Shown in pieces: positions 35,541 through 48,164 of a stretch of 64,000 nt of DNA. The stretch's first letter is position 1; each line of letters starts with the position of its first letter. The stretch is from positions 1-64,000 of the forward strand of contig JAPOQA010000007.1 of NCBI GenBank assembly GCA_026710945.1. The letters run 5' to 3'. The position numbers were made by a program, and so were the translations under genes. The DNA comes from Chloroflexota bacterium. Lineage in GTDB: Bacteria > Chloroflexota > UBA11872 > VXOZ01. The notes beneath the pieces are model-generated. The model saw only the letters and a program-made list of their open reading frames with translations, searched no databases and was not told where the DNA came from.

Positions 35541-36245
35541 CTATTTCTCACGCAAGACTTTCCACAGGTAGGCGATGAGCACACGCTGGCGGCGCCAGCG
35601 CCAGGGCTGCCGCACCAAACGATAGCACCATTCAAGGTTCATCCGCTGAATCCAAAGTGGAGCGCGCGCCACTGTGCCGGAGACATAGTCAAAGCTCCCG
35701 CCGACGCCCATTGCCAAGCGCGCGCCAGTTTTCTCCTGGTACTTCTGAATCCAGAAATCCTGCGCCGGACAGCCAAAGGCAACGAAGAGCATGCCAGCGC
35801 CTGACTCGCGGACCTGCGCGCAGAGTCCGGGCGCTTGATCGGGATCAGGTGCGCCGACGGCCGTGCCGGCGATCACGAGGCCGGGTATCTTTGCTTGCAA
35901 CGTTGCTGCCGCTTGTGCGGCAATCCCAGGAGCCGCGCCGAGTAGAAACACAGCTATTTGCTGCTGAGCGGCCTGGATACAAAGATCTTGCATCAAGTCA
36001 ACGCCCGTCACGCGTTCGATATTGGCTTTGCCTTGGCGGCGTACAGCCCACACGATGCCGGCGCCGTCCGGTACGACGAGGTCGGTCTCGCGAACAAGCG
36101 CGCGAAAGGAAGCGTCGTGCTGGGCGTACATCACGAACTCAGAGTTGAGCGTGACCACCTGGTGGTGGCCGTCGGTGTTGAGCAACTGTACGCAACGGTC
36201 GAGCGCCTGGGATACGGTTACGCAGTCCACGCGCACGCCCAGCAC
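35541..36245 (-). CDS. WecG/TagA/CpsF-family glycosyltransferase
   Basis: The protein is 234 aa. The family transfers N-acetylmannosamine(uronate) or a related sugar to polyprenyl-linked intermediates. Visible signatures are LNSEFVMYAQHD, VVPDGAGIVWA, RVTGVDLMQDLC, FLLGAAPGIA and FVAFGCPAQDFWI, followed by GVGGSFDYVSGTVARAP. The start is a GTG at 36245. The frame stays open a few codons upstream without a better start, right at the edge of a repeat element (36279-36537). It probably acts with the GT4 enzyme upstream on a surface glycan. Confidence 0.9.
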   Translation of the reverse strand: MLGVRVDCVTVSQALDRCVQLLNTDGHHQVVTLNSEFVMYAQHDASFRALVRETDLVVPDGAGIVWAVRRQGKANIERVTGVDLMQDLCIQAAQQQIAVFLLGAAPGIAAQAAATLQAKIPGLVIAGTAVGAPDPDQAPGLCAQVRESGAGMLFVAFGCPAQDFWIQKYQEKTGARLAMGVGGSFDYVSGTVARAPLWIQRMNLEWCYRLVRQPWRWRRQRVLIAYLWKVLREK

Positions 36246-36278
36246 TGTGGCACTGGTGGGTTTGCTATCGTTCGTTTT

Positions 36279-36537
36279 GATAGGAACTTGCCTCGAATGT
36301 ACATGGCTCTGTGTAGACCTGCCCTTCGACAGGCTCAGGACGAACGGAATTCGACAGGCTCAGGGTGAAGGGAATAGGCAGGAAACTGTTCGTGCTGAGT
36401 ACTGGGCGAAGACCTTGGCGGTCCTGAGCACTGCGACAAAACCTGTACTGAGCTTGTCGAAGTACTCAGCACAAGCGTGCCGAAAGGTTGAATCACGATT
36501 TGGCTTAGCGGACAGTTCTATGGGATAGCTCCTAGTT
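36279..36537. repeat. MITE-like repeat element, copy A
   Basis: About 259 bp. It shares with the segment at 61990-62226 the internal block CTCTGTGT..ACCTGCCCTTCGACAGGCTCAGG and the closing GATAGCT(C/T)CTAGT. It also carries several CTTCGACAGGCTCAGG / CCTGAGC..TGTCGAAG inverted units. Its ends are imperfect inverted repeats (TAGGAACTTGCC near 36281, TAGGAGCTATCCC read from 36535 inward). The right end supplies the stop codon of the GT4 gene. No transposase is inside, so any movement would depend on another element. Confidence 0.55.
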
Positions 36538-37644
36538 GTCTTGAATGTCCTGTTTGAACTCAGTCCACTTTGCTTCGACGAATTCCTTGAACTTGCCGGC
36601 AAACACAGATTCGTCAAAACGTGCGGCAGTTTTGCGGCATACGTCAGGTGCGAATCGATCTGGGTCGAAGTCCCGGAGCACTTGTGCAAACGCGGTCCCG
36701 GACTGCTCCGGTACGAACACGCCGTTTACGCCCGGCTGCACGATTTCGGTTGCGCCGCCCGCGCCAAAGGCGATGACGGGCTTGCCGGCGCTCAGGGCTT
36801 CCACCATGACGATGCCAAAGTCCTCTTCACCCGGAAAGAGCAGGGCACGGCAGCCGGCAAGTTGTGCGGCCAACTCCTGCTCCGGCAGCCAGCCAAGGAT
36901 TGATACGTTGGCTGGCGCCGATTTGGTCAGAGTCTCTCGTAGAGGACCGTCGCCGATCACGCGCAAGGGAACGTGCGCTTCCTGAGCGGCAGCGACTGCG
37001 AGGTCCACGTGCTTGTGGGCTTCCAGCCTCCCTACAAATGCATAATACCCGTCATCGCGGCAGGGCTGCGAGCCAAAGCGGCCCGTGGCGACGGGCGGAT
37101 AGATGACGGGCGCCTCGATGCCGTAGACGCGGCGAATGCGTGCCGCCACGGTGCGCGAGATCGCCACCAGATGGTGCGGCTGCGCCGCCGCCCAAAGGTC
37201 CCAACGACGCAAAGGCGGGCGGAGCAAGGCGTCGAGGCTGCGGAGCGGCCGGGACATCTGACTGCGGTCTGTGGCCGGTGTCATGCCCCAAAGGAAGCGC
37301 GGGGGCGTATAGCAGTAGCTGATGTGCAAGGTGTTTGGCCGCCGTGGAATGCCCTTCGCGGCGAAACTGGCCGATGAGATGACCACGTCGAACGGCTCCA
37401 TGTCAAAGCTGCGAAAAACAAGCGGGTAGAGCGGTGTGAGCAGCTTTTGCACGCGCGCCGGATGAGGAATGCGCTGGAGAAACGAGGTCCGCATGTCCCA
37501 CGCGGTCACGTCCACCGGGAACGTGCCACGGTCTATGAAAGAAGTGTATACGGGCGCTTGGGGCCAAAGCCCGTGCATGACCGCCACGGTCTGCTCGGCG
37601 CCCCCCAGGGCAAAGAAGTAATCGTGCGCTAGTGCCACTCGCAT
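36532..37644 (-). CDS. GT4-family glycosyltransferase
   Basis: The protein is 370 aa, a GT-B fold. RVALAHDYFFALGGAEQTVAV begins the acceptor domain, and YYAFVGRLEAHKHVDLAV and the nucleotide-sugar site region FGIVMVEALSAGKPVIAFGAGGATE form the donor domain. The product resembles mannosyltransferases of capsule and O-antigen pathways. Its last codons and TAG overlap the end of the repeat element, so the C terminus may have been reset by insertion. It starts with ATG at 37644, about 90 bp past the end of the Dnd-like operon on the same strand. Confidence 0.9.
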   Translation of the reverse strand: MRVALAHDYFFALGGAEQTVAVMHGLWPQAPVYTSFIDRGTFPVDVTAWDMRTSFLQRIPHPARVQKLLTPLYPLVFRSFDMEPFDVVISSASFAAKGIPRRPNTLHISYCYTPPRFLWGMTPATDRSQMSRPLRSLDALLRPPLRRWDLWAAAQPHHLVAISRTVAARIRRVYGIEAPVIYPPVATGRFGSQPCRDDGYYAFVGRLEAHKHVDLAVAAAQEAHVPLRVIGDGPLRETLTKSAPANVSILGWLPEQELAAQLAGCRALLFPGEEDFGIVMVEALSAGKPVIAFGAGGATEIVQPGVNGVFVPEQSGTAFAQVLRDFDPDRFAPDVCRKTAARFDESVFAGKFKEFVEAKWTEFKQDIQDN

Positions 37645-37731
37645 GTTGGCTCTATGCTAGCTGAGACCCAGGTACAAGAACGAGAGCTAGAAAACATGGG
37701 GAAAGTGGCGAGAGCGGCTTTGAGTCCCAGG

Positions 37732-39018
37732 TCAGTTTACATACCTTGGGGGCAGATCTTTGCCTTCCCTCTCGGTATCTGGAAATTGCGCACGGTATTT
37801 TTCTAGCAACTCGGCTTTGCTTTCATCGCTGAGCTTCTCCCCGGCAAAGTAGGCTATCAAATCTGTTGCTAAATTGCGGTTCTTTGTGTCGATCTTTCCA
37901 TCTGTTCCGCCCATCCAGAGCACGCGATCCCACACCCTCAAGTTGTCTGCGGTAATCGCCCAAGGTAATTTGTTAAGGTTATCGCAGGCCTCTTGCTTTG
38001 AGAGATTGGTCGATGGATCTACTAGGCGCAAATAGGTACGCACCAAACACTCCTGTGCGACAGGTTTACCAAGTAGACTTTCCATTCGAATTTCGCATCG
38101 CTTTTCGTCACCTGTGATTTCCTTGTCGTTGAGGGCATCTCTAAAGGCCTCTATGCCTTCAAGCAACTGCGCCCAAACTTGCCTTACTGCATTCCGATAC
38201 ATTCTTGTCTTCTCAGGTTTTGGAAGTTGGGCTTTGTCTGCTGGCTTAAGTTTTTGACCCGTTATAGCAGTGATAATAGCTTCGTTGCAGTTGTAAATGG
38301 TTGAAAGTGTGGTGAAATGGTAGTCTCTTTCGGTCAAGGTATTGCTTTGAAACTTGACCAGCCGGGCACCGACTAGATCATTAGCAATTTCACGCCCAAG
38401 TATAGCTACAACGTCGTCGTCATTTGTAACGATATTCTGCCCAGTCGTCGGTTTTCTAGCATGGAGATTTACATGCGTGAAGATTTGACGTGCTTTCTTT
38501 CTTTCGAATGGTACAAGTATTACAGTAACGTCCTCCTGCGCGAGTTCTGAGCAAGGAAATGCAATCTTATCGATCTCTTTGTCCTGTTCGTCGCGTCCGC
38601 TGATGGCGAACTTGATCGCCTTTACACGATGTTGTCCGTCAAGAGGATAAAGTACCTCACCACCGCTAAACGTAAGAAGACCAATTTTGTTAGTCTCTGC
38701 CTTGGGCCAACCCGTTAATCCCCGCGTGGTCACGTCGGACAGGGCCTGAAATTCAAAGGTATCCTCGAAATTCTCCGCGGCGACAATTATTGCTCCAAAA
38801 AACCGGGACTTGTTGTTAGCAAGATATGGGGCAATGTGCTGCTTGACCCGACTGTAGGCAATTTCCCTTTGGTAGCGTTCCTCTATGGACAGTGCCTTCC
38901 ATTCTTCCGATTCTCGGGGAATTACAACCTTGTCGGATAACTCTTTGGCTTTCATTGAAAGGATAAAGTAGTCAGTATCGCCCAGTCGGGCCTTCATAGC
39001 TGCCACAGGTGTCGCCAT
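37732..39018 (-). CDS. dndB: DndB-like DGQHR-domain protein
   Basis: The protein is 428 aa. Asp127-Gly-Gln-His-Arg131 sits in VLYPLDGQHRVKAIKFA, the hallmark of the DndB family. An upstream FFGAIIVAAEN and a downstream VTVILVPFERKKARQIFTHVNLHARKP with a KPT..N motif also fit. In classical dnd loci DndB represses or tunes the modification operon and may bind DNA. It ends the five-gene operon, starting 13 bp after the GIY-YIG stop. The gene is AT-richer than the GT4 gene downstream. A role as modulator or as a ParB/Srx-like nucleotide-binding enzyme is possible. Confidence 0.85.
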   Translation of the reverse strand: MATPVAAMKARLGDTDYFILSMKAKELSDKVVIPRESEEWKALSIEERYQREIAYSRVKQHIAPYLANNKSRFFGAIIVAAENFEDTFEFQALSDVTTRGLTGWPKAETNKIGLLTFSGGEVLYPLDGQHRVKAIKFAISGRDEQDKEIDKIAFPCSELAQEDVTVILVPFERKKARQIFTHVNLHARKPTTGQNIVTNDDDVVAILGREIANDLVGARLVKFQSNTLTERDYHFTTLSTIYNCNEAIITAITGQKLKPADKAQLPKPEKTRMYRNAVRQVWAQLLEGIEAFRDALNDKEITGDEKRCEIRMESLLGKPVAQECLVRTYLRLVDPSTNLSKQEACDNLNKLPWAITADNLRVWDRVLWMGGTDGKIDTKNRNLATDLIAYFAGEKLSDESKAELLEKYRAQFPDTEREGKDLPPRYVN

Positions 39019-39031
39019 ACTCTAGTCTCCC

Positions 39032-39361
39032 TCAACGAGTGTTATATTGCACATTTGCTTCAGGATTCCACATTCTTATCAGGCGTCGCTCAAGCGCGTC
39101 GATCTTACCTCTTTCAACTGAGATATAACATACGTCCAAAATTTCGCCAAAAGCTTCAAGCCATAGCCTCAAGGATTCATTGTGAGACCTGTTCCAATGT
39201 TCTCTAAGACGCTCTCGAATTGGGCGTTCCCTCGCTTTACCAACGTAGATGCACTTCCCATTCGTACGGCACCAAAAAGCGTAGACCCCGACAGTTTCCA
39301 TTGGAATCTGCTGAATAGCGCTATATGACCAGTGGGAAACTGTTCTCCTATGCATCTTCAT
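39032..39361 (-). CDS. GIY-YIG nuclease domain protein
   Basis: The protein is 109 aa, essentially one GIY-YIG domain. GVYAFW (25-30) and IYVGKA (38-43) form the two-strand motif, followed by RERLREHW with the conserved Arg. Glu91 in ALERRLIRMWNP is the metal ligand, and Asn residues lie near 99-107. This fold makes a single-strand cut per active site. Its ATG overlaps the stop of the DUF262 gene by 4 nt. Stand-alone GIY-YIG proteins are not part of canonical dnd or ssp sets, so it may supply the nick normally made by SspB or DndD/E, or act as a second effector. Confidence 0.88.
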   Translation of the reverse strand: MKMHRRTVSHWSYSAIQQIPMETVGVYAFWCRTNGKCIYVGKARERPIRERLREHWNRSHNESLRLWLEAFGEILDVCYISVERGKIDALERRLIRMWNPEANVQYNTR

Positions 39362-41172
39362 TGTACATTAGGTAGACGCCAAACTTCAGAGGCGAGCTTG
39401 GCCAATCGGTCTTGCCGCCTTTCAATCTCCGCAGGAGACCAGTCGTTAACTTGGGAAATCTCCCGTGACATCAGAATAGCACTACTCTTATAGATGTCCT
39501 TCTTGCGAGAAAAGCTGCGATTATCATTTGGCCTGGGACTGTTTTCTGCATTCGCTAGTAGAGTGAGGTTACCAATCCTGTCAACATAGTCTGCGTGGTC
39601 GCTTAGATCGAATTTTGGCCATCCTGAAATATAGGAATCTGATTTAGGTAGAATGTGCTCCACCGTGTATCGCCGCTCGTTGATCACCACACTGTCCGGC
39701 TGCTGATAGTATGCAAGTCCGAGTAACAGGCGCTTTGCATATGCGGGCTGGCGTGTGACAGTTTGCTTCATCCTCTCGATAAACACCGTATCATCGAAGA
39801 TGCTCTGCTCATCGCTTTCCTCAAGCGCTGAGTTAAATGGAACGGAATTCAAAGGATCTCCGTCCAAAATCTGTTTCGCTAAGGCCGAGAACGCACTTTC
39901 AAAGTGCGATGATTCGAACTTCTTTGCCACAAATGCTGTGCGCATCACAAACGAGGTCAGCACATGCAATCTTTCGTGTACTTGGCGCGCAACAGAGGGC
40001 TTCTTTCTTCCATCAGCCTCCCGCACGTATTTAAGTAGCAATGCGTATACAATCGGCTGCGTGACTGTATATCTCTTGAGATCACAAAGCAATGCAAATA
40101 ACTCTCGAGGAGACTCTCTCTTCTTTAGCCTCGAAGACCTATTCTTCCTGGAGTCTTTGGTGAAGCTTTCGATTAAAGAGTCATTCTCGCTAGGCGCCGA
40201 GATTGTGCGAAATAGCTCAACTTTGTCCTTTCGAGAAAGGTTCTCTACTAAGTCAAACACATAGTTGCTCAAACTTTGCGCACTCTTGCTGCCGCAGTCG
40301 GCCTTAATCTTTGCTTTCATCTCACGGTAGAAACGGTCCTTCCTCAAGAAGCCGTATTTGCACTGAAGGAAGCAACGAAAATATTCAGCCGATTTCGAGT
40401 CTGCAGAGAGTTGACTTCGTACACTTTCCAGGCTGTCATGAACTGTTTCCCTGCGCGGGTTTGTATCCTGACCACTAAAGAAGGAATAGAAGTGATTGCG
40501 AATGAGGTCAAGTTGGCTCAGTGGCTTACCTCTGGCATTGAGCGTTTCAAAAACTGAGCTTGGGTCGAGCTTTCTTGGTACGTATAGACACGCGACCTCT
40601 AGTTTTCTGAGCACGAAGTCAAAGAAATCCTTGGCTTTCTCGGTATCCATAGACGCTAGATATGTGTTTATCTCACCCCATGCGTCCGTGAGATTTCCAT
40701 TTGGACTAATGTCTCTACCGCGAATCAACTGATAGTATCGGTTTTTGTCATTTCGCGGTGGTGTGAGCCTCGGAACAAGACTATCCCCAGCAGTGAGGTT
40801 TTGGGTATGGTTCTCATTCAAATCAAAGAGAACCCTGAGTGCCAATGCTTCACGTAACGGATCGCCATTGTCACCAAATGTGCGTGCTAACTTGGCGCAG
40901 ATAAGAGAGTAAGTAACCATTCGTTGCTGACCGTCGTTGATCTCCCAAAGACCATCGGACCTTTCTACCAGCATTACGGCACCAAGAAAGTAACAATCAC
41001 GCTGTTCTCTAAACGCTTCTTCAAGGTCCATTAGCAATTCACTTACGTGCTCTCTCTTCCAGTCGTAGTACCTCTGGTGCCAGGGGACTTGAAACCTGCC
41101 CTTGTGAAAGAGCAGGGAGAGCACTGAAGACTCGACTTTGACGACTGTTGGCGTAGAACTCGGAGAATTCAT
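39358..41172 (-). CDS. DUF262/DUF1524 HNH nuclease (SspE/GmrSD-like)
   Basis: The protein is 604 aa. The N-terminal DUF262 domain carries Asp80-Gly-Gln-Gln-Arg84 in WEINDGQQRMVTYSLI and a FQVPWHQRYYDW opening. The C-terminal DUF1524 HNH-type nuclease has VEHILPKS (His506) and IGNLTLLANAEN (Asn535). This is the architecture of GmrSD type IV restriction enzymes and of SspE, which senses phosphorothioate DNA and nicks invading DNA. It overlaps dndC upstream and the GIY-YIG gene downstream by 4 nt each, so it is made with the modification enzymes. I read it as the effector, although a role in modification cannot be excluded. Confidence 0.88.
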   Translation of the reverse strand: MNSPSSTPTVVKVESSVLSLLFHKGRFQVPWHQRYYDWKREHVSELLMDLEEAFREQRDCYFLGAVMLVERSDGLWEINDGQQRMVTYSLICAKLARTFGDNGDPLREALALRVLFDLNENHTQNLTAGDSLVPRLTPPRNDKNRYYQLIRGRDISPNGNLTDAWGEINTYLASMDTEKAKDFFDFVLRKLEVACLYVPRKLDPSSVFETLNARGKPLSQLDLIRNHFYSFFSGQDTNPRRETVHDSLESVRSQLSADSKSAEYFRCFLQCKYGFLRKDRFYREMKAKIKADCGSKSAQSLSNYVFDLVENLSRKDKVELFRTISAPSENDSLIESFTKDSRKNRSSRLKKRESPRELFALLCDLKRYTVTQPIVYALLLKYVREADGRKKPSVARQVHERLHVLTSFVMRTAFVAKKFESSHFESAFSALAKQILDGDPLNSVPFNSALEESDEQSIFDDTVFIERMKQTVTRQPAYAKRLLLGLAYYQQPDSVVINERRYTVEHILPKSDSYISGWPKFDLSDHADYVDRIGNLTLLANAENSPRPNDNRSFSRKKDIYKSSAILMSREISQVNDWSPAEIERRQDRLAKLASEVWRLPNVQ

Positions 41173-42344
41173 ACTGTTTCCATATTGAGCTGTTCAATTA
41201 GGGCAAGACGCCCTTCTTCTCTGGTTCTATCGCGCCACCAAATATCCTCGATGAATTCAATCTCAGACTGGGAAATCAGCTCTTCTCCAAACTGTGCTTC
41301 AATTTCCTGTAATCGAACTAAAATCCTCCGACGAACTTCAAGCCGAAACGGCCCAAAAACTCGGGACCCGTCAACACGGGTCTTTGTACGTCCGTCACGG
41401 CGCACTGGTAAACGGTTTGCATCGTCTTCGCGAAGTTCAATTAGCCACTCTCGGAAATTGAATAATTCTTCCAATTTGTCGCGCTCAGGATGGCCAGAGT
41501 CTATTGTCCCGCGCATGCTCCTATCTTTCGTAACGACAGTGCAAGTCCAGCAGCCAAAGCGGGGCGAGGTTGTACCGCATGATGGCGCATCCTCTTTGGT
41601 CAATACAAGCGGACACTCCCCGCCACCAGCATTGCGATACAGTGTTATTAGGTTACGATGGGAACCGCCCCAAGGCGGCTTTCTCTGCATCAGAATCATC
41701 CACACGTCGTCGTCTTGTAAGTCCGCAAGCGGCGCAAACATACGACACCCTTTGATCGAACTGTGCGGATTCATCTCATTGGCCCTCACGCGATGCTTCT
41801 GCATGTTGCGGCGGCGGGTCTGCGACTCGCTACGACGTGTTCCCACAAGCAAGATTGCGCGCTTGTGCCGGGCAACAAGCTCCTCAATTAGGCGATTTGT
41901 GGGCTGTATTTTCATCCTGTCCGTGCACCAGCGAAAGTTGCGCGTCGGCGGAATATAACCGCGTCCTATAACATTGACCCAAAAAGTTTGGTCTACATAG
42001 GGTTTGGTGATTTGTGTGGCAATAGGCAATCCCATCCCCTCTGCCGCTCGGCGAATGACATCGATGCTATTCTTCAAATGCTCGATGACAAGGGGAGATT
42101 CGACCAGCGTGTCGTTGGCTACGACATAGACCATGCGATGGCGCTCTTCCGGATCAAGCGATAAGAGCATCTCCCAAACCAACTGCATCAGCAAAGTCGA
42201 GTCTTTGCCCCCAGAATAAGCGACGATCCAAGGATCGGAGTGGTTCTTGCGATACTCAGTCTGAATTACTTCGCGCACGGAGGCGAGCTGGTCGGTGATA
42301 CTGTGAGGAGCCGGCCCACCACTGTCACTGTATGCAGTACTCAT
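41169..42344 (-). CDS. dndC: DndC-like PAPS-reductase-family sulfurtransferase
   Basis: The protein is 391 aa. An ATP pyrophosphatase loop lies at SGGKDST (44-50), [14 protein letters not shown] follows, then [10 protein letters not shown] (Cys140). A Cys cluster at 244, 256, 265 and 268 ([14 protein letters not shown]) fits the [4Fe-4S] site of DndC. It is longer than plain PAPS reductase and includes the [11 protein letters not shown] tail typical of DndC. DndC adenylates the DNA backbone or carries sulfur to it, using sulfur from the desulfurase. The ATG overlaps the desulfurase stop (ATGA), showing coupling. Confidence 0.92.
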
Positions 42345-43534
42345 GCTTCTATCCTGTTGCGATGTTCAATCCAAGTGGGAGAAATACTGCGCAATTCGTC
42401 TACGGCGCCCGTGATCTGTTCAGCCGCATAGTCTATCTCTTCAACAGTGGTAAACCTACCGAGACTGAGACGAAGAGAACTGTGTGCGGCTTCTTCATCC
42501 ACTCCAAGCGCCATCAGGACGTGAGAGGGCTTTACACTTGCCGAAGTACACGCAGACCCAGTAGATATGGCTATATTACCTTTGAGCATCATGATCAGCG
42601 ACTCACTTTCAACGGATGCAATTGTCACATTTATAATACCTGGCACACAATGTCTGCGTTTTCCGTTGACTGAGAGTTGCTCTATCAGGCTAAGACGACC
42701 CATGAGTCGCTTCGACAAGAGACATATTCTGCTGAGATCACTCTCGAACTGCTCTCTCACAAGGCGGGCTGCCTCACCCATACCTACAATCTGATGGGTT
42801 GGTAGAGTTCCCGATCGCATGCCGCGTTCGTGTCCTCCGCCATGTATCTGGGCCTCCAGCCGTGTCCGTGGATTGCGCCTAACATACAACGCCCCGATAC
42901 CTTTAGGACCGTACATTTTGTGACCACTCAGGGATAAGAGATCAGCCTGGATACTTTGCATGTCTAGCGTCAGGCGTGCCGCACTCTGTGCGGCGTCAAC
43001 ATGGAAGGGGATCTTGCGTTCACGAGTGATTTCCGCAATGGCCTGTATGTCAGTTACAGTTCCAAGCTCATTGTTGACGTGCATCAGAGAGACTAAGATC
43101 GTATCAGACCGTAGGGCTGCACTTACTTGGTCAGGACTAATGACCCCATCAATGCTCGGCTTTAGGTACGTGACATCATACCCTTGGCCCTCCAAATAAC
43201 GACATGAGTCGAGTACAGCTTTATGCTCAATTGTCGAAGTAACTATATGCCGCCCACGGTCAGCGTAAGCATTGGCCACACCTTTGATTGCCAAGTTGTC
43301 CGATTCTGTGGCTCCCGATGCCCAGATGACTTCATCTGGTTCGGCATTGATTAGACCCGCCAATTCCTGGCGGGCGTTTTCAACCGCCTTTTCGGCTTCC
43401 CAACCAAAGCGGTGTGTACGTGAAGCTGGATTGCCAAATATCCCGTCAGTTCCCAAGAAACCCATCATAGTTTCCGCAACTTGGGGATCGACGGGAGTAG
43501 TTGCCGCATAGTCCAGGTAAATGGCTCTCTGCAA
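42341..43534 (-). CDS. dndA: DndA/IscS-type cysteine desulfurase of the modification operon
   Basis: The protein is 397 aa. It has the [14 protein letters not shown] opening, Lys206 in [10 protein letters not shown] (PLP Schiff base) and Cys329 in [16 protein letters not shown] (persulfide carrier). It frees sulfur from cysteine for transfer. The window has a second, housekeeping desulfurase at 54603-55790. The position of this one, coupled to dndC, shows it is dedicated to the Dnd-like pathway. The start is a TTG at 43534 with AAGG 7 nt upstream. The gene is clearly AT-richer than the inositol operon across the divergent gap. Confidence 0.9.
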
Positions 43535-43598
43535 TGATTACCTTCTATTCGCTTAGGCGAAGAGACTGATTGAATTACCGCAGACTTTGTGCAAGTCC

Positions 43599-43628
43599 AG
43601 TCTATCAACGCAGGTCACACACGGTCAA
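43599..43628 (-). promoter_or_regulatory. candidate promoter of the Dnd-like operon
   Basis: On the minus strand TTGACC (plus coordinates 43623-43628) and TAGACT (43599-43604) are 18 bp apart, giving a start near 43592 and a leader of roughly 58 nt. The surrounding intergenic DNA is AT-rich. Confidence 0.4.
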
Positions 43629-43689
43629 CGTTAGATTCAATTGACGTAAGCATGAGAAGAAGATAATATAAAGAAAAATCACTTCAACG

Positions 43690-44067: not shown

Positions 44068-44173
44068 CTAGAGCGACGAAACCTAGCGGAGGACATGGGT
44101 GTGTGCGCCGTGGAGATTGCACACACAAGAGTCGACAGGAAGAATTGCAACAAACTTAGGGAGAGAAGTACCG

Positions 44174-45292
44174 GTGAGTAGTAAGGTACGGGTGGCGATA
44201 GTCGGCGTGGGAAACTGCGCGTCGTCTCTGATTCAAGGGGTCCAATATTACCGAAACGCAGCGGACACGGATTTCGTTCCCGGTCTCATGCACGTGCGGC
44301 TGGGTGATTATCACGTGAGCGACATTGAGTTTTCCGCCGCCTTTGACGTTGACGAAAACAAGGTTGGCAAGGAGCTTGGCGAGGCGATCTGGCAGCCACC
44401 GAATAACACGATCAAGTTTTCGGAGGTAGAGCCGCTCGGCGTGTCGGTCCATCGCGGCATGACCCACGATGGTATCGGTCAGTATCTCAGCGAGGTCGTG
44501 CACAAAGCGCCCGGGTCCACGGACGATATTGTGAGCATTTTGAAAGACACCGGCACGGATGTCCTCGTAAGTTATCTGCCGGTAGGCAGCGAAGAAGCGA
44601 CGAAGTGGTACGTGGAGCAGGTATTGCGCGCCGGTTGCGCTTTCGTGAACTGCATTCCGGTCTTTATCGGCCGTGAGCCCTACTGGCAGCGGCGCTTCCA
44701 TGAAGCAGGGGTCCCAATTGTTGGCGATGACATCAAGTCCCAGGTTGGGGCAACGATTGTCCATCGCACCTTGGCGCGGCTCTTCCGGGACCGCGGTGTA
44801 CGCTTGGAGGAGACGAGCCAGCTCAACGTCGGAGGCAATACCGACTTTCTCAACATGTTGGAGCGCTCTCGTTTGAGCTCCAAGAAGGAATCCAAGACGA
44901 ACGCGGTAACCTCGCTGTTGGATTACGATCCCGGCGAAGGCAACGTTTACATTGGTCCCAGCGACCACGTGCCGTTTCTGCAGGACCGCAAGTGGGCATA
45001 CATTCATATGAACGGTAAGGCCTTTGGCGACGTCCCACTGCGGGCAGAGATCAAGCTGGAGGTGTGGGACTCACCGAATTCGGCGGGTGTGGTCATCGAT
45101 GCCGTGCGCCTGGCCAAAATCGGGCTCGACCGCAGTCTCAGCGGCACATTGGTCGCGGCGTCGGCCTATCTCATGAAGTCGCCCCCACAGCAGATTACTG
45201 ATGAGCGGGCGCGGGAAATGCTCGAGGAATTCATTGCCGGAACCGGTGATGATGCGGGCTACGTCCTCCAGGGCGGGGAGCAACAGTCATAG
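44174..45292 (+). CDS. ino1: myo-inositol-1-phosphate synthase
   Basis: About 372 aa from GTG 44174, preceded by AGGGAGAGAAG; the frame is open further upstream without good signals. It turns glucose 6-phosphate into inositol 1-phosphate using [20 protein letters not shown] is the NAD site, and [18 protein letters not shown] and [12 protein letters not shown] are catalytic-region signatures of the actinobacterial/archaeal form, whose size it matches. It heads an operon with lipid enzymes, so the inositol is destined for phosphatidylinositol. Confidence 0.93.
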
Positions 45293-45307
45293 CTGAGAGT
45301 TCGTGTC

Positions 45308-46219
45308 ATGACGATGAGTGGCCTGACAGGACGGCTCTTGTTAGTAACGGGCGCCACACTTGACGGCGCTTTGCCGCAATCTATCAAGTATCGCATGGCG
45401 AGTCTGCTGGCCCGGGCGGTCTTTCGTGTTTGGCGGACTGGTCGCGAAAACGCAATGGCCAATATGTCCCATGTGTTGGGAAAGCCGTTGCTGCATCCGG
45501 ATACGCGGCGAGTGGCCATGAAGTCTATGGAGAACTACGGCTGGTACTTAGCCGACTTTCTGAGCTGGATGCGGATGACCCCAGAGCGCTTGGAGCAGCG
45601 GGTGCGCGAGTTTCAAGGGGAAGAATATCTCACTGAGGCCCTGAAGGCAGGCAAGGGCGTGATTTTTCTCTCCGGTCACTTTGGGCTCTGGGACTTAGGC
45701 GGCGCAATGCTTGCACAACGATTTCCGGTTCTGATTCCGGTGGACCAGTTTGGTAGTGGGACGATTGATTGGATCGTGCGCAGAGTGCGTGAGCGTTTAG
45801 GTATCGATACGGTGCCGGTGGAGAGCGGGCTGCGCGCCATGTTGCGGCAACTACAAGCCAATCGTGTGGTAGGACTGCTGTTTGATCGGCCGATGGGCGG
45901 CCGCGGCGTTCCTGTTACATTTTTTGGGAGTCAGGCGTTTCTTCCCGCCGGCCCGGCCGCGCTGGCATTGCGCACCGGAGCTCCGCTCGTGATGTGTCAG
46001 TGCCGGCGCAGTGAGGGAAATGGCTTGGCTGTCACCGTCTACCCGCCCATTTACGCCGTTCCCAGTGACGATGAGAAGAGCGACATTCAAGCCACCATGC
46101 AGCAACTTGCGGGATTGTTGGAAGAGATGATTCGCTCGTGTCCGGAGCAGTGGTACATGTTTCGTCCTATGTGGGCCCGACCTCTTTGCGCCGAGGCCCC
46201 CGGCACGGGACAGGCATAG
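45308..46219 (+). CDS. LPLAT-family acyltransferase (HtrB/PatA-like)
   Basis: The protein is 303 aa, lysophospholipid/lipid A acyltransferase family. The His-x4-Asp motif is HFGLWD in FLSGHFGLWDLGGAML (about 119-134), and FDRPMGGRGVPVTFFG is the second conserved block. In mycobacteria the related PatA acylates phosphatidylinositol mannosides and lies beside pimA and pgsA; the same gene company occurs here. It begins 16 bp after ino1. Membrane-associated, inner leaflet expected. A role in lipid A acylation is less likely given the context. Confidence 0.85.
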   Translation: MTMSGLTGRLLLVTGATLDGALPQSIKYRMASLLARAVFRVWRTGRENAMANMSHVLGKPLLHPDTRRVAMKSMENYGWYLADFLSWMRMTPERLEQRVREFQGEEYLTEALKAGKGVIFLSGHFGLWDLGGAMLAQRFPVLIPVDQFGSGTIDWIVRRVRERLGIDTVPVESGLRAMLRQLQANRVVGLLFDRPMGGRGVPVTFFGSQAFLPAGPAALALRTGAPLVMCQCRRSEGNGLAVTVYPPIYAVPSDDEKSDIQATMQQLAGLLEEMIRSCPEQWYMFRPMWARPLCAEAPGTGQA

Positions 46220-46230
46220 GTAGGAGGGGT

Positions 46231-46974
46231 ATGCGAATGCGACCGTCTCCAGAAGAATCGTTAGACCCGACCCTTGCCAGCAAGGCGGACTTGCACATCC
46301 ACACGAAGGCGAGTGACGGCACGTTCACGCCCTATGAGATGCTGGAATATGTGAGTGCCGAGACAGATATAGCGGTTCTTGCGGTCACGGACCACGATGA
46401 AATTGACGGCGCACTTGAGGCGGAGGCGCTTGCCGACCAATTTCCGGGTGTGGAGGTGATCCCAGGTATCGAGGTATCCACCTTCGACGGCCACCTCATA
46501 GGTCTGTGGGTAGAGACGGCGTTTCCGGTCTTGCGCAGTGCTGAGTGGACCATCGATGCCATACGAGAGCAGGGCGGATTGGTGATTGTTCCTCACCCGA
46601 TGTCTTGGTTGACCCTAAGCTTTCGGCAGTACACTTTCAAACGCTTGGCGAGAAAAGGGTACTGGTTCGACGCTATTGAAGTCATGAACGCGAGCCCGGC
46701 GGGCAAGATGAGCTACGAAAAGGCGCTAGAGATCCAGCAAAGACTTGACCTGCCTCAGGTTGGCGGCAGTGACGCGCACATTTTGGAGGGGATCGGCAAG
46801 GCGCACACCGTCTTTCCCGGCAAGACAGCCAATGACGTGCGGGAAGCAATCAAACACAAGACGACGGTGGCATGCGGCGGGTACTTTGATCTAGATGAAT
46901 CTATGCTCTACTTTCGGCGCAAAATGCAACGGTATGCGGATTGGCTGGGACAGACGCTCGTTCCCGGAAAGTGA
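46231..46974 (+). CDS. PHP-domain phosphoesterase
   Basis: About 247 aa from ATG 46231, which has the strong site AGGAGGGG; an upstream open stretch overlaps the acyltransferase and is not coding. ADLHIHTKASDGTF has the PHP metal His residues, AVTDHDEIDGA the next ligands, and GGSDAHILEG a later Asp-His. PHP proteins of this TrpH type remove phosphate from nucleotides or small molecules. It sits between the acyltransferase and PimA-like genes. An inositol- or sugar-phosphatase role is possible but not shown. Confidence 0.85.
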   Translation: MRMRPSPEESLDPTLASKADLHIHTKASDGTFTPYEMLEYVSAETDIAVLAVTDHDEIDGALEAEALADQFPGVEVIPGIEVSTFDGHLIGLWVETAFPVLRSAEWTIDAIREQGGLVIVPHPMSWLTLSFRQYTFKRLARKGYWFDAIEVMNASPAGKMSYEKALEIQQRLDLPQVGGSDAHILEGIGKAHTVFPGKTANDVREAIKHKTTVACGGYFDLDESMLYFRRKMQRYADWLGQTLVPGK

Positions 46975-46982
46975 GGCGGAGC

Positions 46983-48164
46983 ATGAAGATTGCCCTCGTT
47001 TCACCATACGACTATGCATATCCCGGTGGTGTGACCGAGCACATCAGTCACCTCAATGGGCAGTTTCAAGGTATGGGGCATGAGGTCCGCATACTTGCGC
47101 CTTCATCCCAGCCTGAAGAAGAATTGCCCTACGATAACCTTTACCGGGTTGGGAAGACGATCGTCAGGGTTCCGACGAATGCCTCAGTGGCGCGCATTTC
47201 GCTCTCGCTCACGCTCTCGCGTCAGGTGAAGGAAATTCTCGCCAATGAGCGGTTCGACGTGGTGCACCTGCACGAGCCGCTCGCACCGGCGTTGCCTATC
47301 ACGGTGCTCCGTCACTCCCGGACAGTAAACGTCGGGACATTCCATACTTACCGGCGCTCCCACTTCGCGTATCTTTACGGCAAACCATTGTTGAAGCGGT
47401 ACTTCAATCGATTGCAGGGACGGGTTGCCGTATCTGATGCGGCCCGCGAGTTGATTGAACGCTATTTCCCCGCCAGGTACCGCATCATTCCCAATGGCAT
47501 CGACATGCAGCTCTTCCAAAGCGCGTTGCCTCCTTTTCCCAATCTAGATGACGGTATGCTCAACATACTGTTTGTCGGACGGCTGGAGAAGCGCAAAGGA
47601 TTGACATACCTTTTGCAGGCACTGCGAATTGTGCAGGAGAGCGGCACCTATGACGTTCGCCTTATTGTTGTGGGTGCGTTCACAGAGGAACAGCGCGGCG
47701 AGTATGAGAAGAGAGTTACTCAGCTTGGCTTGTCGAATGTGCTTTTCATCGGGTTTGTAAGTAGAGAAGAGAAGGTACGTTACTACAAGTCATGCCATGT
47801 GTTTTGCGCGCCGTCTACCGGCGGCGAAAGCCAGGGCATCGTTTTGCTCGAGGCCATGGCTGCCGGCAAGCCGGTCGTGGCGTCCAGCATTGAAGGGTAT
47901 CGTGGAGTGCTGGATGGCACAGGAGCCGGCGAGCTGGTTCCCCCGCAAGATGAAGCAGCATTGGCTCGGGCGCTCATGCGCTTCCTTGGCCATGAATCGC
48001 TTCGCGACGAGACTGGCGCCAGGGGATTACTCGCGGCGCAAGGCTATTCTTGGGAGAAGATCGCGACTCAGTTGGTTGCGTTCTATGAAGAGACCATCGC
48101 CAGCGCAAGGCCGCGCAGCCGCCGCTTTGACTGGGCAAGAGTAGAACGGCGGAGGAAGGAATGA
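46983..48164 (+). CDS. pimA: GT4 glycosyltransferase, PimA-like mannosyltransferase
   Basis: About 393 aa from ATG 46983, 8 nt after the PHP stop with GAGGCGGAG upstream. A GT-B enzyme: SPYDYAYPGGVTEHISHLNGQ is close to the PimA acceptor loop, then VGTFHTY, FVGRLEKRKGLTYLLQA, and ESQGIVLLEAMAAGKPVVAS in the donor site. PimA adds the first mannose to phosphatidylinositol using GDP-mannose at the inner face of the membrane. Context (ino1, phosphatidyltransferase, acyltransferase) agrees. The exact acceptor is inferred. Confidence 0.82.
   Translation: MKIALVSPYDYAYPGGVTEHISHLNGQFQGMGHEVRILAPSSQPEEELPYDNLYRVGKTIVRVPTNASVARISLSLTLSRQVKEILANERFDVVHLHEPLAPALPITVLRHSRTVNVGTFHTYRRSHFAYLYGKPLLKRYFNRLQGRVAVSDAARELIERYFPARYRIIPNGIDMQLFQSALPPFPNLDDGMLNILFVGRLEKRKGLTYLLQALRIVQESGTYDVRLIVVGAFTEEQRGEYEKRVTQLGLSNVLFIGFVSREEKVRYYKSCHVFCAPSTGGESQGIVLLEAMAAGKPVVASSIEGYRGVLDGTGAGELVPPQDEAALARALMRFLGHESLRDETGARGLLAAQGYSWEKIATQLVAFYEETIASARPRSRRFDWARVERRRKE

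Follow-up and report, generated by a model that had tools for sequence, protein, structure and literature searches.

Every phosphorothioation (PT) system described to date depends on an ATPase, which is DndD or SspC, and on a DNA-recognition part, which is DndE or SspB. DndD/E and SspB/C are the only alternatives in a 2025 review, and SspB or DndE presumably nicks the DNA to ready it for PT (PMC12707154). DndD/DndE have been named the functional core of Dnd systems (PMC10853773). Here, we analyzed a 64,000-nucleotide (nt) stretch of a Chloroflexota genome (contig JAPOQA010000007.1, positions 1 to 64,000; hereafter the window), in which five minus-strand open reading frames (ORFs) encoding DndA, DndC, a GmrSD-type effector, a GIY-YIG nuclease and a DndB-superfamily protein span 37732–43534 in one shared direction. 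We consider it probable, at roughly 60%, that this operon is a member of a DNA-sulfur (phosphorothioation-type) restriction family that is free of both DndD/DndE and SspB/SspC and has a desulfurase–DndC–GmrSD core.

The operon shares a cysteine desulfurase, DndC and a DUF262/DUF1524 effector with the IscS-DndBCDE-DndI system of Salmonella (PMC11662687). However, the window genome lacks DndD/DndE, its effector carries His32 in place of Tyr25, a GIY-YIG gene is added, and the DndB-like protein falls below the equivalog cut-off. SspABCD-SspE (PMC13251355) likewise combines a desulfurase, a PAPS-reductase-like sulfurtransferase and a DGQQR/HNH effector, whereas the window has no SspB/SspC, its sulfurtransferase is of the DndC rather than the SspD type, and the sensor Tyr of SspE is absent. 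DndA, DndC and a DndB-superfamily protein are held in common with DndABCDE (PMC10853773), but DndD/DndE are missing from the window and its DndC clade is split from the sampled DndD-associated DndCs by a fully supported stem. Type 4 BREX (PMC12839542) also pairs a PAPS-reductase-like sulfurtransferase with a cysteine desulfurase; it belongs to the BrxP/SspD branch and comes with DUF4007 and BrxC (also PglZ and BrxL), whereas the window protein is DndC-type and a genome search found no DUF4007. Finally, dndA/B/C-like genes with DUF262/DUF1524 have been mentioned in sponge Thaumarchaeota (PMC6790972, PMC7848895). Likened by description alone, they very probably represent a glimpse of the same core; they were not recognized there as a separate DndD/E-free system, nor tied to GIY-YIG or SNF2 modules. 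An earlier reading of the window, made from the sequence only, had raised the possibility of a new system, and in the open full-text literature (subscription papers and preprints lay outside the search) we indeed found no named system of the DndD-free desulfurase–DndC–GmrSD kind. All parts come from known families, and they probably work on the same principle as phosphorothioation systems.

The operon, its desulfurase and its DndC

The sequence-only reading had described five ORFs in one direction, the first four joined by 4-nt overlaps, and these joints were seen as ATGA junctions at 42341–42344, 41169–41172 and 39358–39361; GmrSD is translationally coupled to DndC. The residues it had named (Cys329 of the desulfurase, the PP-loop and Cys cluster of DndC, DGQQR/HNH, GIY-YIG and DGQHR) are all in place. 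The desulfurase scored 580 bits with PRK14012/IscS (cut-off 548), and 545 and 534 bits with the PADLOC SspA and DndA models; its C329 sits in a GSACT motif. It adjoins DndC in 18 of the 25 related loci described below, in copies 54–68% identical to that of the window. The window genome encodes ten class-V aminotransferase-family proteins and therefore probably has other desulfurases besides that of the operon.

The window DndC matched TIGR03183 at 344 bits (cut-off 290.4), and in a separate comparison it scored 389 bits with DndC, 49 with BrxP and 34 with SspD. Its PP-loop and five Cys residues do not vary across the clade alignment. Judged by their order and surroundings, C140, C256, C265 and C268 match the four residues proposed as 4Fe-4S ligands in E. 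coli DndC, and C244 matches an extra conserved Cys of that protein (PMC12193691). With its PP-loop and Cys set intact, the enzyme should be active, as judged from its sequence. E. coli DndC contacts DndD via residues 433–482 and a C-terminal helix (PMC12193691), a part that is missing from the window DndC of 391 amino acids (aa). We dropped this shortness as proof of DndD independence because equally short DndCs adjoin DndD elsewhere and the feature is not diagnostic.

PP-loop enzymes include tRNA thiolases, and DndC might instead thiolate RNA or a small molecule, or make a non-PT mark on DNA, with GmrSD sensing the product or invading nucleic acid. Such a destination for the sulfur would fit a genome in which the known DNA-handling parts are missing and a reader with His in place of the Tyr. 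However, DndC clears its equivalog cut-off while the TilS model gives 16 bits, it keeps company with DNA nucleases, ParB-type proteins and SNF2 helicases, and GmrSD folds like DNA-nicking effectors; we regard a target of this kind as unlikely.

DndC relatives without DndD and DndE

Scanning a single genome from each species yielded 80 DndC loci. The 25 closest to the window are 60–75% identical to its DndC, with two basal ones at about 60%, and lie in bins labeled Chloroflexi, Nitrospinota, Nitrospirales, Acidobacteria, Binatia, Gammaproteobacteria, Dadabacteria, Rhodothermales, Gemmatimonadota and Bacteroidota. Together with the window they make a clade of 26 loci that covers about ten phyla and forms one group against the other DndCs on the DndC tree (SH-aLRT 100, stem 0.88). 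DndD stood beside DndC in 54 of the other compared loci, whereas in the flanking DNA of the 25 related loci none was found, either by BLAST or by a profile built from the 54 DndD sequences. As a label on the DndC tree, DndD required a single change, and 0 of 500 shuffles were as low. No family members were found in viral contigs; plasmids carried no relatives of GIY-YIG or ParB-HTH and only distant ones of DndB, GmrSD and DndC.

Three distant DndCs outside the clade (L012, L013 and L100) also had no DndD in their flanks by BLAST or profile, so DndD-less DndC loci may have more than one origin; the three are possibly other DndD-free systems. The record-title prefixes of loci L042–L066 (COS, RHO, STY, CAR; probably also SB06xx and PNG) agree with marine-sponge metagenomes (for example, PMC8163846), and the family may be found mostly in sponge symbionts.

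The sequence-only reading had noted that DndD, DndE, SspB and SspC are missing from the 64 kb, and their absence extends to the whole window assembly (3.52 Mb, 98.4% complete). The best DndD score was 19 bits against a cut-off of 245.85, and the 54-sequence profile found no DndD in the window. DndE gave no match in the genome at E ≤ 10. SspC gave none with PDLC02776, a model that matched 5 other genomes, and SspB (DUF4007) none with PF13182 or PDLC02765. PF13182 alone found no positive control, and the SspB search was repeated with PDLC02765, which matched 5 other genomes. The models for DndD (its family matched in G404, G415 and G422) and DndE likewise found their targets in other genomes. 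Among the 25 related host genomes, 22 had no DndD or DndE above the cut-off; G404, G415 and G422 carried a DndD/DndE pair on another contig. SspB and SspC were counted in those 22 genomes, and 17 of them, as well as the window genome, lacked all four proteins. In locus L050 (G408 contig 3, near 2481363–2485567), SspB/SspC homologues lie apparently about 10 kb from DndC, beside a DGQHR gene.

Core genes, effector and the exchangeable half

The conserved unit is three genes: the cysteine desulfurase, DndC and GmrSD. In 22 of the 25 loci, DndC is followed downstream by GmrSD, either whole or split over two frames; L046 stops at the edge of its contig. Pairwise distances among the three proteins were correlated (r = 0.88–0.94, p = 0.001), most tightly for DndC and GmrSD (0.94). 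The core also correlated with the genes of the more frequent second half, called kind A below (r = 0.58–0.88, p = 0.001). These correlated divergences indicate that the genes travel as a unit between phyla, and on conservation and co-inheritance we rejected a chance grouping or a set of pseudogenes. Single loci depart from the pattern. At L043:9482–11251, GmrSD residues 9–217 continue in frame into DndB, with neither the HNH nor the GIY-YIG part left; the gene may be degenerate, a true fusion or a product of misassembly. At L064:11150–12277, in a gammaproteobacterial bin, an unrelated HNH-like protein of 375 aa replaces GmrSD and GIY-YIG between DndC and DndB. At L061:10673–12601, a further GmrSD of this family, with VPWHQR and NDGQQR, is encoded on the other strand of that contig, downstream of the first operon.

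What follows the core comes in two kinds. Kind A, found in 18 loci of which a few have an incomplete set, comprises an SNF2 helicase (~460 aa), a ParB_N protein (~275 aa), a ParB-HTH protein (~240 aa) and a metallo-beta-lactamase nuclease (~345 aa). HxHxDH and SGD/DSTYG motifs are present in the nuclease, whose matches are beta-CASP nucleases (FttA/CPSF and SNM1-type); those of the ParB parts are Noc/Spo0J. Kind B, GIY-YIG plus DndB, occurs in six loci (the window, L042, L045, L062, L065 and L137 in genome G039), and switching between the two kinds took several changes on the DndC tree. In L051:4154–8148, the SNF2–ParB–ParB-HTH–beta-CASP set lies upstream, inverted relative to DndA–DndC–GmrSD, and behaves as a separable unit. 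The five-gene order of the window, for which the sequence-only reading had proposed a search, recurs exactly in L062 (Holophagales). Its view of the five genes as one unit did not survive the comparison: the core is DndA–DndC–GmrSD, and GIY-YIG/DndB is one of two alternative halves.

The window GIY-YIG protein matched PF01541 at 25.8 bits (cut-off 22.6) and also PF20815; GVY25 and YVG39 are present, and the motif is kept in all 5 copies compared. DndB copies 47–64% identical to that of the window adjoin GIY-YIG in L042, L045, L062, L065 and L137. The window copy matched PF14072 at 100.8 bits (cut-off 29.1), with DGQHR at 127, but reached only 56.5 bits with the DndB equivalog TIGR03233 (cut-off 328). 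It is therefore a DGQHR/DndB-superfamily protein and probably not a close DndB orthologue.

The earlier reading had also suggested that the GIY-YIG protein takes the place of the missing nickase, DndE or SspB, in a minimal five-gene phosphorothioation system. The intact motifs, the constant company of DndB in all six kind B loci and the preparatory nicking assigned to SspB/DndE (PMC12707154) would agree with this. However, about four fifths of the family is without GIY-YIG, most of it still with DndA–DndC–GmrSD, and these members carry the beta-CASP nuclease, so that GIY-YIG could equally be an accessory effector; moreover, L064 has DndC and DndB without GIY-YIG. Because GIY-YIG/DndB is exchangeable for SNF2/ParB/beta-CASP, a GIY-YIG replacement nickase is not the general answer, and we give this role little credence for the window as well.

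The window GmrSD matched GmrSD_N at 89.6 bits (cut-off 33.2) and GmrSD_C at 83.7 bits (cut-off 23). As in SspE/DndI effectors, one protein combines a DUF262 DGQQR NTPase with a DUF1524 HNH domain, and the HNH and NTPase (DGQQR) residues are invariant among the family members compared. A profile search placed DndI (9jfl, E 5.9e-29) and SspE (6jiv, E 4.2e-18) as the nearest solved proteins. An AlphaFold2 model (pLDDT 86.7) was then used in a Foldseek fold search of the PDB, in which only DndI and SspE chains matched at E ≤ 0.001, DndI with E 1.1e-14. DndI and SspE are phosphorothioate-dependent antiphage effectors, and the Tyr of their P-x-Y-Q-R motif (DndI Y25, StSspE Y30, EcSspE Y63) is needed for the response to phosphorothioate (PMC11662687, PMC13251355). 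The earlier comparison with SspE needs amending: the nearest solved relative is DndI, and in the window protein the position of the PT-sensing Tyr of both effectors is taken by His.

GmrSD might also belong to the writer, its NTPase scanning DNA and its HNH domain nicking it before DndC inserts the sulfur. This would explain why GmrSD is constant beside DndC, unlike GIY-YIG and SNF2, and why DndDE/SspBC are dispensable. Its translational coupling to DndC, the highest distance correlation of all pairs, the invariant HNH and DGQQR residues and the missing reader Tyr all speak for such a role. On the other side, L064 has DndC and DndB with an unrelated HNH-like protein, as expected of a replaceable effector, and the structurally matched relatives are all restriction effectors; we consider a writing GmrSD rather unlikely.

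Several observations weigh against a DndD/E-free, SspB/C-free phosphorothioation-type family. Neither known ATPase/DNA-recognition pair is present in the window genome. Five of the 22 DndD/DndE-free host genomes carry SspB and SspC elsewhere, and the relatives are mostly metagenome bins, so absence from any one genome is weak evidence. Moreover, in the profile alignment the column of the PT-sensor Tyr is His in 20 of 22 GmrSDs (Tyr in L049, Arg in the basal L065), and for this reason the reader may not recognize PT in the known manner. In six unrelated DUF262 proteins that were checked, the column varies between Tyr, Phe, Asn and one His (L147), and we rejected His32 as a strict family marker.

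Insertion site and a possible route of sulfur onto DNA

In a relative from the same genus (G036), the genes that flank the operon (window 36532–37661 and 43634 onward) are only 115 bp apart, which represents the empty site. The insert, at about 37662–43633, has a guanine-cytosine (GC) content of 48.9%, against 60.8% and 57.2% in the flanks. The five-gene operon is therefore a horizontal acquisition at a clean site (Table 1). The second species of the genus with the cassette (G039) has DndB–GIY-YIG–GmrSD at the same site, 64, 61 and 58% identical to those of the window; this copy (L137) is broken by a contig end within GmrSD. DndC had no match in the other sampled genomes of the class. G037, G038 and G040 carry 1.1–1.6 kb of other small ORFs at this position, which is a small insertion hot spot among congeners. 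By inspection, these ORFs are RusA-like and unknown in L134 (G037) and aspartyl-protease-like in L135 (G040) and L138 (G038).

A Dnd operon that lost DndD/DndE and is now functionless would likewise lack these genes throughout the window genome, and the L043 fusion without its HNH and GIY-YIG parts could be read in this way. However, the five window genes are open with their catalytic residues conserved, the DndD-free clade rests on a single long, well-supported stem and includes about ten phyla, and G039 retains the cassette at the same site, which makes decay very improbable.

Table 1. Features of the operon and its insertion site in the window.
Feature	Position	Strand	Details
Cysteine desulfurase, DndA/IscS type	42341..43534	-	TTG start; nucleophile Cys329; pyridoxal-phosphate Lys in SGHK 203-206
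DndC	41169..42344	-	PP-loop SGGKDST 44-50; Cys140/244/256/265/268 invariant in clade
GmrSD-type effector	39358..41172	-	DUF262 NTPase DGQQR 80-84; C-terminal HNH/DUF1524 E505-H506, N535; PT-sensor column His32
GmrSD His32 codon CAC	41077..41079	-	Aligned with phosphorothioate-sensing Tyr of DndI (Y25) and SspE (Y30/Y63)
Stand-alone GIY-YIG nuclease, 109 aa	39032..39361	-	GVY, YVG and Glu of ERRL present
DndB-superfamily (DGQHR, ParB-like) protein	37732..39018	-	Family match PF14072
GIY-YIG/DndB gap, 13 nt, GGGAGACTAGAGT	39019..39031	-	Shine-Dalgarno-like GGGAG
Acquired insert, approximate extent	37662..43633		Empty site in genus relative G036; GC contrast with flanks

In the neighborhood, window 36278–36536 is a dispersed short intergenic repeat that recurs at many sites of the genome; a query with 35541–37700 gave 20–59 matches per genome across the genus, mostly at query positions 738–996. 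Beyond DndA, inspection of 44099–48164 showed inositol-3-phosphate synthase-like, acyltransferase-like and PHP-domain-like ORFs and a glycosyltransferase, a flank that recalls a phosphatidylinositol-mannoside cluster.

The gene set, the coupling, the conserved catalytic residues, the co-inheritance, the absence of the known partners and the fold kinship of GmrSD to DndI/SspE were observed directly. Because catalytic residues are intact, the DndD-free clade is supported, the partners are absent, the core distances are correlated, the effector fold is DndI/SspE-like and acquisition was at a clean site, we favor a phosphorothioation-type restriction system; that DNA is the substrate, PT the product and defense the function, and how the labor is divided, we infer. 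In such a system, Cys329 of the desulfurase would draw sulfur from cysteine and hand it to DndC, as is known for the family. DndC, which has an ATP site in its PP-loop and an Fe-S/Cys cluster, would place the sulfur on DNA, most likely as phosphorothioate or a close relative; the company of nucleases, ParB proteins and SNF2 points to DNA as the site of the product. GmrSD would sense the mark via its DUF262 NTPase, and its HNH domain would nick wrongly marked or unmarked DNA, a restriction under NTPase control modeled on DndI and SspE. The accessory half, GIY-YIG plus DndB here and SNF2/ParB/ParB-HTH/beta-CASP in most relatives, would give DNA engagement for marking, extra nuclease activity or both. 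Our confidence falls from the transfer of sulfur to DndC, through a product on DNA and restriction by GmrSD, to the access or effector role of the helpers, and the least certain step is how DndC would reach DNA without DndD/E or SspB/C.

Most likely, the operon represents a third way of assembling phosphorothioation-type restriction, one whose reader has been retuned. More tentatively, and slightly short of even odds, it may be a third independent route of sulfur onto DNA, in which DndA–DndC, GmrSD and interchangeable helpers make and read the mark and the His-for-Tyr change reflects a different mark or recognition. By its sequences, this previously unnamed, multi-phylum family would mark DNA, if it does so, by a route that differs in parts from both known machines. 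The family retains the sulfur chemistry and the effector in about ten phyla, mostly without either pair, and so suggests an exception to the rule of an ATPase and a DNA-recognition part. It lets the indispensable part of the phosphorothioation machine be tested, and the conserved Tyr-to-His change provides a single-residue handle on how such effectors recognize their mark. That the second half can be exchanged hints at one task solved in two ways. Should the bins be mostly marine-sponge symbionts, as their names suggest, the family would be a candidate major defense system of that habitat.

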